Assembly (NCBI GenBank): GCA_019635875.1
Contig: JAHBYP010000014.1
Location: forward strand, 1 to 64,000
Direction of reading: 5' to 3'
From: Alphaproteobacteria bacterium
Lineage (GTDB): Bacteria; Pseudomonadota; Alphaproteobacteria; Reyranellales; Reyranellaceae
Length of the DNA stretch: 64,000 nucleotides
Positions 20,122 to 47,938 of the stretch are shown in pieces (position 1 is the stretch's first letter; each line of letters opens with the position of its first letter). The notes below the pieces were generated by a model. That model made no database searches. It had not been told where the DNA came from and was given only the letters and a program-made list of their open reading frames with translations. The position numbers and the translations under genes are program-made.

Positions 20122-20772
20122 TCACGACCACTCCTCCGCCAGCGTCTCGGCCGTCGGCGCGAAGTCGCCGAGGTCGATCGGCCGCGCGTTGGGCAGGTGG
20201 ATGTCGCCGTGGGTGGCGATCACCGCCAGGCCGCCACCCTTCATGTGCTCGCGCAGGGTGAAATGCAGGGCGCCGCGCGAGGCCTCGTCGAGGCCCGAAG
20301 CCGGCTCGTCGAGCAGCCAGATCGGCGCGCCACTTTGCATGACCCGCGCCAGGGCCGCGCGGCGGCGCTGGCCGGCGGAGAGGTAGCGGCCAGGCCGGTC
20401 GGCGATGGTGGTGAGGTCGAAGCGCGCCAGCACGTGCTCCAGGCTGTCGGGATGGCCCCGGCGCAGGATCTGGGCACCGGCGAGAGACTCGCGGAGCGTC
20501 AGGTCGGGCTTGATCGCGTCGGCGTGGCCCAGCCAGGCCAGCGCCTGGCGCCAGGCGTCGGGCTGCTCGGAGACCTCGACACCGGTCCAGGTCAGGCTGC
20601 CGCGCAGGCGCGGCGTCAGCAGCGCCAGCAGGCGCAGCAGGCTGGACTTGCCCGAGCCGTTGGCGCCCGTCAGCAGCAGCGCCTCGCCCTGCTCGAGGCC
20701 GAAACCGAGGCCGGTGAAGACCAGCCGTCCGCCGCGGCGGCAGGCGAGGTTCTCGGCGTGAAGGGCGGGCAT
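20122..20772 (-). CDS. ccmA: Heme exporter ATP-binding protein CcmA
   Basis: A 216-residue ABC ATPase that powers release of holo-CcmE. Walker A GANGSGKSS (36-44), signature LSAGQRRRAALAR, Walker B IWLLDEPASGLDE, and the switch histidine in ATHGDIHL. First gene of the ccmABCDEFGHI cluster; its promoter must lie in the 204 bp shared with the divergent dnaN, but no clear hexamers stand out. The much longer upstream frame runs antisense over dnaN and is not real. Confidence 0.96.
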   Translation of the reverse strand: MPALHAENLACRRGGRLVFTGLGFGLEQGEALLLTGANGSGKSSLLRLLALLTPRLRGSLTWTGVEVSEQPDAWRQALAWLGHADAIKPDLTLRESLAGAQILRRGHPDSLEHVLARFDLTTIADRPGRYLSAGQRRRAALARVMQSGAPIWLLDEPASGLDEASRGALHFTLREHMKGGGLAVIATHGDIHLPNARPIDLGDFAPTAETLAEEWS

Positions 20773-20976
20773 GCGGCGCAGTGGCTCAGGGCTGGTATTG
20801 CAGGCTGTTTCTAGCACGCCAGGCCTGTCCCCAAGCGCCCGAAAAGACTTCGGGAATCGAGGCCCCATGGTATAGTTCCAGACCGTTTCCAGCGGCAGGC
20901 GCGCGGCCCCGTGACGAAGCGGTCCCGATCCCTCGCCGGGGTCCTCAACGACGTCATACGGGCGGTCATCTCGACC

Positions 20977-22088
20977 ATGAAACTCACGATTGAACGGGCC
21001 GCTTTGCTGAAGGCTCTGGCCCATGTGCAGAGTGTTGTCGAGAAGCGCAACACGATCCCGATCCTGTCCAACGTCCTGCTCAATGCCCAGAAGGGCAAGC
21101 TGACGCTCTCGGCCACCGACATGGACCTGGCGGTCACCGAATCGGTCGAGGCCAGCGCCGGCAAGACCGGCGCGGTCACGGCGCCTGCGCACACCATGTA
21201 CGAGATCGTGCGCAAGCTGCCCGACGGCTCGCAGGTCGAGATCGAGACCGGCGCCAACAGCGACCTCACCATCCGTGCCGGCCGCTCGCGCTTCACCCTG
21301 CAGTGCCTGCCGGTGAGCGACTTCCCTGTCATGAACGAAGGCGACCTGCCGCACAAGTTCCAGCTCGCCGCCGGCGACCTCAAGAGCGTCGTCGACCGCA
21401 CGCGGTTTGCGATCTCCACCGAGGAGACGCGCTACTACCTCAACGGCATCTACTTCCACGCCGCCAAGTCGAACCAGACCGACGTGCTGCGCGGCGTGGC
21501 CACCGACGGCCACCGCCTGGCGCGTGTCGAGCTGCCGCTGCCCAAGGGCGCCGGCGAGATGCCCGGCGTGATCGTGCCGCGCAAGACAGTGGGCGAGCTG
21601 CGCAAGCTGATCGAGGAATCGGACGCGCTGGTCGATATCGAGCTGTCGGAGACCAAGATCCGCTTCGCCTGCGGCCAGATCGTGCTGACCTCGAAGCTGA
21701 TCGACGGCACCTTCCCCGACTACGAGCGCGTGATCCCGGCCGGCAACGACAAGGAGCTCACGGTTCCCTGCAAGGAATTCGAGTCCGCGGTCGATCGCGT
21801 CTCGACGATCTCGACCGAGAAGTCGCGGGCCATCAAGCTGGCCCTGGGCAAGAACGGCCTGACGCTGTCGGCCACCAGCCCGGACGCCGGCAGCGCCACC
21901 GAGGAGCTCGAGGTCGTCTACGACGCCCAGCCGATCGAGATCGGATTCAATTCCCGCTACCTGCTGGACATCACCCAGCAGATCGGCGGGGGTGACGCGC
22001 GCTTCCTGATGTCCGACGCCGGCTCGCCCACCATCGTGCGCGACGCGGCCGACGACAGCGCGCTCTATGTGCTCATGCCGATGCGGGT

Positions 22089-22092
<4 letters not shown>
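20977..22092 (+). CDS. dnaN: DNA polymerase III beta sliding clamp
   Basis: A 371-residue clamp that tethers replicative polymerase to DNA and recruits other repair factors through its hydrophobic pocket. The N-terminus MKLTIERAALLKALAHVQSVVEKRNTIPI and the internal ATDMDLAVTE, ATDGHRLARVELP and C-terminal YVLMPMRV are all canonical. The ATG at 20977 is preferred; an in-frame GTG at 20911 would add 22 residues without homology. It overlaps recF by ATGA, starting the dnaN-recF-gyrB unit. Confidence 0.98.
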
Positions 22093-45882: not shown

Positions 45883-46113
45883 ATGAGTTCGCCCGATGAT
45901 GCCAAGCCAGCCGCGACGCCGTTCGCGGAGCATCGCGTCGAAACCGCGAAGCCCAAACCCGCCGCAGCCAAACCTGTTGCCGGCGCGGGCGACGGCGCAA
46001 AGGTATCCTCCGCGGCCACGCCGCCGGCGGTTCCCGAGATCGGGGGGCCACCAGGACCCGAGCCAACTCGCTACGGCGACTGGCAATTCAACGGCAAGGT
46101 TACGGATTTCTAG
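45883..46113 (+). CDS. DUF1674 protein (succinate dehydrogenase assembly factor 4-like)
   Basis: A 76-residue protein with a disordered, Ala/Pro/Lys-rich N-terminus and the conserved C-terminal signature GGPPGPEPTRYGDWQFNGKVTDF region, which defines DUF1674. In mitochondria the homologue SDHAF4 binds flavinated SdhA and protects it before complex assembly; the bacterial role is inferred from that. Met at 45883 is preferred over one 12 codons earlier. The pairing with htpX and rsmB is conserved in many alphaproteobacteria as I recall it. Confidence 0.85.
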   Translation: MSSPDDAKPAATPFAEHRVETAKPKPAAAKPVAGAGDGAKVSSAATPPAVPEIGGPPGPEPTRYGDWQFNGKVTDF

Positions 46114-46274
46114 TCGTCAGTGACGATCAGGCGGCAGGACTCATCGGCAACTTCTTGTTTTCTGAGGCCGAAGAGCCGCCTCTCACATGGGTGTGACCAA
46201 AATATCACAGAAACGCCCCATTTGGGTCTAGCACCGGCCACCCGAGGCCCCTATCTCAGGCTCGTATCTCCCCC

Positions 46275-46364
46275 GAACGTGGTTCCCCCAAGCCACGTTC
46301 TAGCCTCGCAAGAGGCTTTAGGCCGTCGTTCCAACTCCCCCCGGAACGACGGCCCTCTTTTTTT
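46275..46364 (+). ncRNA. Candidate trans-acting small RNA with C-rich loops
   Basis: Three hairpins in tandem end in a strong terminator. Hairpin 1 (46275-46300): GAACGTGG/CCACGTTC stem with a CCCCCA loop after two extra pairs. Hairpin 2 (46302-46317): AGCCTC-GCAA-GAGGCT, a GNRA tetraloop. Hairpin 3 is the terminator, with loop AACTCCCCCC. Unpaired C-rich loops like these are the pairing sites of several alphaproteobacterial small RNAs that block Shine-Dalgarno sequences. The 5' end is undetermined and may lie as far up as about 46190. The structure is seen; the RNA itself is inferred. Confidence 0.5.
46321..46364 (+). terminator. Strong intrinsic terminator (12-bp stem, U7)
   Basis: GGCCGTCGTTCC at 46321-46332 pairs perfectly with GGAACGACGGCC at 46343-46354, followed by CTC and seven Ts. 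It is the clearest plus-strand terminator in the window. It ends either the DUF1674 transcript or, more likely given the 200-bp gap, an independent small RNA. Confidence 0.9.
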
Positions 46365-46372
46365 GGGGCCCA

Positions 46373-46443
46373 CTTTGTCATCCCGAGCGCAGCGAGGGAT
46401 CCAGGCTGCAACTGGATCCCTCGCTGCGCTCGGGATGACAAAG
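46373..46443. repeat. Third-family element: 31-bp perfect palindrome with 9-nt loop
   Basis: Arms 46373-46403 and 46413-46443 are exact reverse complements (31 bp) around the loop GGCTGCAAC. The core CATCCCGAGCGCAGCGAGGG is a dispersed repeat widely seen in alphaproteobacteria. It lies 8 bp beyond the U-tract of the terminator and 22 bp after the dnaA stop, again just 3' of a gene. Confidence 0.93.
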
Positions 46444-46465
46444 AGGTTGTCGGGTGAGGCCGAAC

Positions 46466-47938
46466 TCAGCCCTGCAGCATGCGCTTGAGCAGCTCGACGT
46501 CCTCGTTGATCGCGTTGTCGCTGCCGCGCAGCTCCTCGATCTTCCTGACCGCATGCATCACGGTCGTGTGGTCGCGATTGCCGAACTTGCGGCCGATCGA
46601 GGGCAGGCTCGCCTGCGTCAGGTGCTTGGCGAGATACATCGCCACCTGGCGCGGCCGCGCCACCGAGCGCGAGCGGCGCGGCGAGTGCATCTCGGCGATC
46701 TTGATGTTGTAGTGCTGCGAAACGCGCAGCTGGATCTCCTCGATGGTGACGCGCCGGTCGGCGGCGCGCAGCACGTCGTGCAGCACCTCCTGCGCGGTCT
46801 CCAGCGTGGTGTCGCGCCCGACCAGGGTGGCATGGGCGACGACGCGGTTCAGCGCCCCTTCGAGCTCGCGCACATTGGTGGCGATCTTGTGCGCGAGGAA
46901 TTCCAGCACGCGATCGGGGATGCGCACGCCGGCCTGCTCGATCTTGCTCTGCAGGATGCCCAGGCGCAGCTCGTAGGTCGTGGCGTGGATGTCGGCGACC
47001 AGGCCGTGCTGGAGGCGCGAGCGCACGCGGTCCTCCAGCCCCTCGAGCTCAGCCGGCGACTTGTCGGACGACAGCACGATCTGGCGGTTCTGGTCGACCA
47101 GCGCGTTGAAGGTATGGAAGAACTCTTCCTGGCTGGTGTCCTTGCCGCAGATGAACTGGACGTCGTCGATCATCAGCACGTCGACGCCGCGGAACTGCTC
47201 CTTGAACCCCTGCGTGTTCTTGGTGCGCAGCGCCTGGATGAAGCGGTTCACGAAGGTTTCGGCCGAGAGGTAGAGCACGCGGCGCTGCGGATCGCGGCCG
47301 CGCACGGCGTGCCAGATCGCATGCATCAGGTGCGTCTTGCCCAGGCCGACGCCGCCGTAGAGGAACAGCGGGTTGAAGGTCGGCGCGTCGGTTTCCGCCA
47401 CGCGCCGCGCGGCGGCGTAGGCGAACTCGTTGGGCTTGCCGACGACGAAGCTGTCGAAGGAGAAGCGCGGGTCGGGCTGGCCGACCAGGTCGTCATAGAC
47501 GCGCTCCGTCGATCGCGACACCGGCGGGCCGGTGCGCGGCATCGGCAGCACGGCGGGATGGCCGTTGGCCGTCGCCGGCAGCGGACCCGGTTCGACCGAG
47601 GGGGTGTCGGCCAGCTCGGGTCCCTTGCGCCCGGCCGAAGCGGCGGGCTGCACGATGATCTCGACGACGCGCAATTCCGGATTCTCTCTGGTCCACAAGG
47701 CCTGGATGCGATCCAGATAGTGACCGACGACCCAGTCGCGCATGAAGCGCGTCGGTGTCGCCAGCCTCAGCCGGCCGTCGCGGACCTCGCTGAGCCGCAA
47801 CGGCTCGAGCCATGTCTTGTAAGCCTTCTCGCTGACATCCTGCTGCAGGCGCTCCTGCACCCGTCTCCATTGCGCATCGAAAGTCCCCCTGGAACGGTCG
47901 CCCATGCCTATCCCCGTCACTTGGCCGTTTTCCGGCAT
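46466..47938 (-). CDS. dnaA: Chromosomal replication initiator protein DnaA
   Basis: A 490-residue initiator. Domain I (TFDAQWRRVQERLQQDVSEKAYKTWLEPL), a linker rich in Pro/Gly, the AAA+ domain III (NPLFLYGGVGLGKTHLMHAI Walker A region; MIDDVQFICGK Walker B) and the DNA-binding domain IV ending GRKFGNRDHTTVMHAVRKIEEL, the DnaA-box recognition signature. Met12 (nt 47905) has a better ribosome site (GGGGA) and may be the real start. dnaA lies about 21 kb from dnaN-recF-gyrB, the split arrangement usual in alphaproteobacteria. Confidence 0.97.
   Translation of the reverse strand: MPENGQVTGIGMGDRSRGTFDAQWRRVQERLQQDVSEKAYKTWLEPLRLSEVRDGRLRLATPTRFMRDWVVGHYLDRIQALWTRENPELRVVEIIVQPAASAGRKGPELADTPSVEPGPLPATANGHPAVLPMPRTGPPVSRSTERVYDDLVGQPDPRFSFDSFVVGKPNEFAYAAARRVAETDAPTFNPLFLYGGVGLGKTHLMHAIWHAVRGRDPQRRVLYLSAETFVNRFIQALRTKNTQGFKEQFRGVDVLMIDDVQFICGKDTSQEEFFHTFNALVDQNRQIVLSSDKSPAELEGLEDRVRSRLQHGLVADIHATTYELRLGILQSKIEQAGVRIPDRVLEFLAHKIATNVRELEGALNRVVAHATLVGRDTTLETAQEVLHDVLRAADRRVTIEEIQLRVSQHYNIKIAEMHSPRRSRSVARPRQVAMYLAKHLTQASLPSIGRKFGNRDHTTVMHAVRKIEELRGSDNAINEDVELLKRMLQG

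Follow-up and report, generated by a model that had tools for sequence, protein, structure and literature searches.

Several bacterial small RNAs expose C-rich or pyrimidine-rich stretches. In rhizobia, the trans-acting alpha-r14/NfeR1 has three hairpins, variable stems and unpaired pyrimidine-rich motifs that resemble an anti-Shine-Dalgarno (anti-SD) sequence (PMC10746234, PMC3927594). GsrN of Caulobacteraceae carries a conserved C-run in an exposed loop, which pairs with G-rich sites in mRNAs (PMC5869019). B11, the 6C RNA of Actinobacteria (RF01066), acts by loop-dependent repression via a 5′ UTR that carries a G tract (PMC10470900). The alpha-r8/SisA-D RNAs of Caulobacter have an unpaired pyrimidine anti-SD-like stretch and a terminator and pair near start codons (PMC12559287), and PmaR of Agrobacterium acts on several mRNAs with an accessible C-rich loop (PMC6234868).

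We analyzed a candidate of this kind at positions 46190-46364 (top strand) of the window, i.e. the whole 64,000-nucleotide stretch of Reyranellaceae DNA under study. Like alpha-r14/NfeR1, the Reyranellaceae RNA has three hairpins, unpaired anti-SD-like motifs and varying stems; however, the identical CCUCCUCCC motifs of alpha-r14/NfeR1 are present in 0 of 50 sequences of its alignment A1 and 0 of 22 of alignment A3. The alpha-r8 motif UUUCCUCCCU is likewise absent from all 50 and all 22, although an unpaired anti-SD-like stretch and a terminator are common to both RNAs, and SisA-D are four sibling copies whereas the Reyranellaceae RNA is usually single copy. With GsrN it shares a conserved C-run in an exposed loop, but GsrN belongs to the sigma-EcfG regulon, usually lies near ecfG/phyR and has one C-rich 5′ loop, while the RNA described here has three C-runs and a ccmA/acnA address. 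Inspection by eye found no sigma-EcfG promoter (GGAAC-N16/17-CGTT) upstream of the window's RNA, and the neighbours across the family are ccmA/acnA or dnaA. C-run hairpin loops are also found in 6C/B11 (two hairpins in 6C), which comes from another phylum and has neither the 5′ block nor the ccmA context. PmaR is similar in its accessible C-rich loop and differs in having one long stem and in its restriction to Agrobacterium and one close Rhizobium.

A search of Rfam and with covariance models had been proposed as a check when the locus was first read. No Rfam 15 family reached its gathering threshold in the window or in 20 homologous loci, the best relevant scores being 23.7 bits for 6C (threshold 47) and 13.3 for suhB (threshold 41); our own covariance models did find homologues. 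Several conserved unpaired C-runs, covarying stems, an intrinsic terminator and a locus of its own are traits which the RNA has in common with multi-C-loop sRNAs. Judged by the features tested, it is a new RNA family of a functional type already known (NfeR1, GsrN, 6C) and appears to lie outside those families. No paper joining acnA, ccmA and such an sRNA was found in the literature, where the RNA may be listed under a bare number in supplementary RNA-seq tables.

Fold and conservation of the RNA

Three hairpins in a 352-bp gap free of genes were described in the sequence-only reading. Their loops read CCCCCA, GCAA and AACUCCCCCC, and the third loop closes a 12-bp terminator stem with T7. Sequence and fold prediction agree on all of these elements (Table 1), and the gap indeed extends from the DUF1674 stop at 46113 to the dnaA end at 46466, with both genes backed by Pfam. 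The predicted minimum free energy is -68.3 kcal/mol compared with -44.45 ± 3.68 kcal/mol in 200 dinucleotide shuffles (z -6.48, 0 of 200 as good); the opposite strand folds too, though less specially (z -3.4). Two features were absent from the earlier description: a third unpaired C-run, GUAUCUCCCCC, which is conserved more strongly than any other stretch and has a predicted unpaired probability of about 0.98, and the conserved 5′ block.

Table 1. Positions in the window of the RNA elements and of the genes discussed
Feature	Position	Strand	Basis or remark
ccmA, usual downstream neighbour in the family, now about 25 kb away	20170..20763	-	synteny
dnaN, other edge of the apparent inversion	20911..22092	+	synteny
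DUF1674 gene, upstream neighbour	45883..46113	+	PF07896
Possible -35 element TTGTTT (TTGATT in most relatives)	46155..46160	+	suggested by recurrence in relatives
Imperfect palindrome TGTGACCAAAATATCACA, 5′ hairpin or operator	46192..46209	+	kept in many relatives
Conserved 5′ block AAAATATCACA-N5-GCCCCATTTGGGTCTAGC	46196..46232	+	class-wide; position approximate
Variable spacer	46233..46263	+	genus alignment columns 28-51
Unpaired C-linker GUAUCUCCCCC, directly 5′ of hairpin 1	46264..46274	+	likely seed 1
Hairpin 1, 10 bp, loop CCCCCA	46275..46300	+	fold, conservation; likely seed 2
Hairpin 2, 6 bp, loop GCAA	46302..46317	+	fold; tetraloop varies, stem invariant
Terminator: 12-bp hairpin (46321-46354), loop AACUCCCCCC; T7 (46358-46364)	46321..46364	+	likely seed 3
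dnaA, convergent neighbour	46466..47938	-	PF00308/PF08299

In relatives that lack insertions, a TTGA-like hexamer is seen again some 44-53 nt 5′ of ATCACA. The -35 element is nevertheless given as putative, because its distance is not constant and the -10 is weak. The 5′ palindrome has the form TGTGAY-N6-RTCACA; across the class it takes the form of a GCGAAA..TTTCGCC-like block enclosing a central ATCACA. A CRP-type site was considered here and dropped, as the half-sites are 2 bp too far apart and the left half is missing in most sequences of family f88. In six Reyranella loci (L033, L042, L044, L046, L051 and L054) long, unrelated hairpins stand in place of the left half and stop close to the GCCCCATTT block, and REP-like elements lie further upstream of the sRNA in the same loci.

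A DNA search of relatives detected the element throughout the family, and in one-per-family samples of the class it returned nothing at useful significance. A pattern scan of named genomes gave matches in Reyranella, Vineibacter, Enhydrobacter aerosaccus and alphaproteobacterial MAGs; an exact-pattern scan of viral contigs gave none. With covariance model R1, homologues were found in 69 of 76 Reyranellales genomes (49 of the 51 of good quality), a second family included.

Within the source genus 3 of the 103 core columns vary, compared with 10 of 24 in the spacer. Among 50 aligned homologues, 20 of the 21 unpaired C-motif columns are at least 90% conserved, a level reached by 19 of the 60 unpaired columns outside the C-motifs, and GUAUCUCCCCC is invariant save for a rare one-base insertion. 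Fold predictions leave the C-runs unpaired in most of the homologues tested; L032 deviates, with pairing predicted for part of its linker C-run. Over the whole structure there are 59 two-sided pair changes versus 14 ± 3 in shuffles, and in the terminator stem such changes affect most of the 12 pairs (alignment A2) around an invariant C-run. Conservation of the loops in relatives had been proposed as a check, and conservation restricted to the terminator as a possible refutation. The near-invariance of the unpaired C-motif columns in the 50 homologues, together with compensatory changes in the stems, rules out such restriction.

These data leave hardly any credit for a plain terminator of the DUF1674 gene without RNA function, or for a small ORF. 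An intrinsic terminator does end the locus downstream of DUF1674, but the whole core is conserved and travels without that gene, and coding is unlikely because alignment A1 contains single-base indels. These comparisons give good support to a small RNA whose C-loops are functional.

Homologues, the ccmA address and its loss in the source genus

Iterated covariance models extend the family to about 20 other alphaproteobacterial families, the E-values of these models being rough. Matches to R1 outside Reyranellales (E 1e-5 to 0.1) are mixed: L070 and L078 are real homologues, and L071, L072, L074-L077 and L079 look like chance G+C-rich terminators. In f88, which lies outside the order, the layout is kept and the C-runs are retained while the terminator stem is rewritten, with covariation at most of its 12 pairs. 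Model R2, built with f88 sequences added, produced full-length matches in further families; its homologues share a 5′ block close to AAATCACA-N5-GCC-N-CATTT, a linker near ACCUCCCCUC and the C-loops. At E ≤ 0.001 model R3 reaches 65 of the 385 genomes of the class, and it detects homologues in families that had no part in its training (f156, f103, f106, f80 and f62). One f114 homologue (L317, 1501-1733, minus strand) has extra tandem hairpins with C-run loops. A different C-loop RNA candidate, consisting of a CCUCCUCCCCC loop, a small hairpin and a C-loop terminator, was seen in an f106 genome (L073, 1501-1608, minus strand).

In most lineages ccmA follows the end of the RNA, as a rule after 34-170 nt, and lies on the same strand; the other neighbour in f18, f105, f139 and f114 is aconitase. 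Seven of the nine R2 matches outside Reyranellaceae with a mapped ccmA sit 79-393 nt upstream of it, same strand, and as the R2 search used no gene content this synteny is independent support. At E ≤ 1e-5, 12 of 17 full-length R3 matches with a mapped ccmA adjoin it, two of the 12 (G187 and G258) being training sequences found via ccmA. A weight matrix of the 5′ block, with training genomes scored leave-family-out, gave a score of at least 10 in 13 of 90 ccmA upstream regions versus 3 of 360 control sequences.

The RNA is not always directly upstream of ccmA. An AraC-type gene stands between the two in Vineibacter, about 12 kb separates them in an f11 genus, and in an f106 genome they are uncoupled; the sRNA is retained in Vineibacter and in that f11 genus. 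The fourth case is the source genus. Genes dnaA and dnaN are adjacent in 8 of 8 other Reyranellaceae genomes checked, and in the source genus they are about 24 kb apart in opposite orientation (G000 and G003). The same two junctions, ccmA|dnaN and sRNA|dnaA, occur on contigs of G001 and G002; in the window they fall at 20763-20911 and 46364-46466. A single inversion of about 25 kb is the simplest reading, because flipping the segment restores both dnaA-dnaN and sRNA-ccmA. The sRNA was thus apparently parted from ccmA by an inversion that split dnaA from dnaN-recF-gyrB. Where a single contig of a Reyranella outgroup carries both places, some 180-220 kb separate them; the pre-inversion order in the source genus is therefore our reconstruction.

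The gap between the terminator and dnaA, at the presumed junction, contains a 35-bp near-perfect REP-like inverted repeat (GTCATCCCGAGCG.., 46370-46446), the sole copy in the window. Matches of miRNA models to it in a permissive Rfam scan are palindrome artefacts.

The small RNA with C-loops proposed in the sequence-only reading has held up, with conserved C-runs and covarying stems. On the genomes compared, its setting between DUF1674 and dnaA is only a local address due to a genus-specific rearrangement, and the usual place is upstream of ccmA.

The position of the RNA in most lineages could be explained if it were the 5′ leader of ccmAB and its terminator a conditional one (an attenuator) that controls heme export; in the source genus the inversion would have left this leader an orphan. 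We consider this unlikely. The core is conserved where ccmA is no longer downstream, as the column counts above show for the source genus, and the C-runs, unneeded for attenuation, are its most conserved part. The obvious antiterminator helix (GACGGCC with GGCCGUC) shows no compensatory change and is broken in many sequences; this one candidate helix was rejected with 0 two-sided changes and 142 of 500 shuffles as good. Since the core is kept without ccmA, the unpaired C-runs are invariant and the candidate antiterminator does not covary, a trans-acting RNA is favoured over a ccmA attenuator. An ancestral tie to ccm expression is favoured by the position near ccmA, and the RNA may serve as a leader in other lineages. 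Dual function, in which the RNA is a leader of ccmA and its early-terminated form has a second role in trans, would join the synteny to retention after uncoupling, but we regard it as quite improbable.

Proposed function and possible targets

Our preferred reading is that the locus is probably a gene for a trans-acting regulatory sRNA of about 150-175 nt, whose three unpaired C-runs most likely pair with G-rich sites in mRNAs. Transcription would probably start from a promoter that precedes the 5′ block and probably end at the terminator. Three C-runs would be exposed, namely UCUCCCCC in the linker, CCCCCA in the hairpin loop and CUCCCCCC in the terminator loop. These would most likely pair with G-rich Shine-Dalgarno (SD) or leader sequences of several mRNAs and so alter their translation or stability. 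Masking of SD sequences by the C-runs is plausible because the C-runs are predicted to be unpaired and the class-wide linker ACCUCCCCUC resembles the anti-SD tail of 16S rRNA. The known RNAs GsrN, B11/6C and NfeR1 also point to pairing with SD or G-rich leader sequences. A scan with the SD target pattern GGGGGAGAT-N-ATG gave 1-12 matches per genome with no shared orthologues among the matches read, the reversed-pattern control leaving general SD bias in.

It is very unlikely that the RNA is a sponge, with a protein or further G-rich RNAs as the partners of its C-runs and 5′ block in place of mRNA start sites: the linker resembles the anti-SD tail, and the multi-C-loop RNAs studied to date pair with mRNA. 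Conservation of the 5′ block would fit such a role, and sponge RNAs have precedents in Caulobacter (PMC12559287).

We put forward, as a doubtful proposal, an ancient class-wide alphaproteobacterial regulator. It would begin as the leader of the heme-exporter (ccm) operon beside aconitase, be set free by termination to act in trans as an anti-SD-like RNA, and survive as a gene of its own where rearrangement took ccmA away. If true, such an RNA would tie heme, cytochrome c and iron-sulphur status to the translation of other genes.

Usually single copy and missing from Rfam, the family would be among the broadest sRNA families of the class, with members in many alphaproteobacterial families, a common ccmA (often acnA) address and invariant C-run seeds. 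It hints that translation is coupled post-transcriptionally to heme/cytochrome c maturation or the TCA cycle, and the lineages from which rearrangement has removed ccmA provide a natural test of trans versus cis action.
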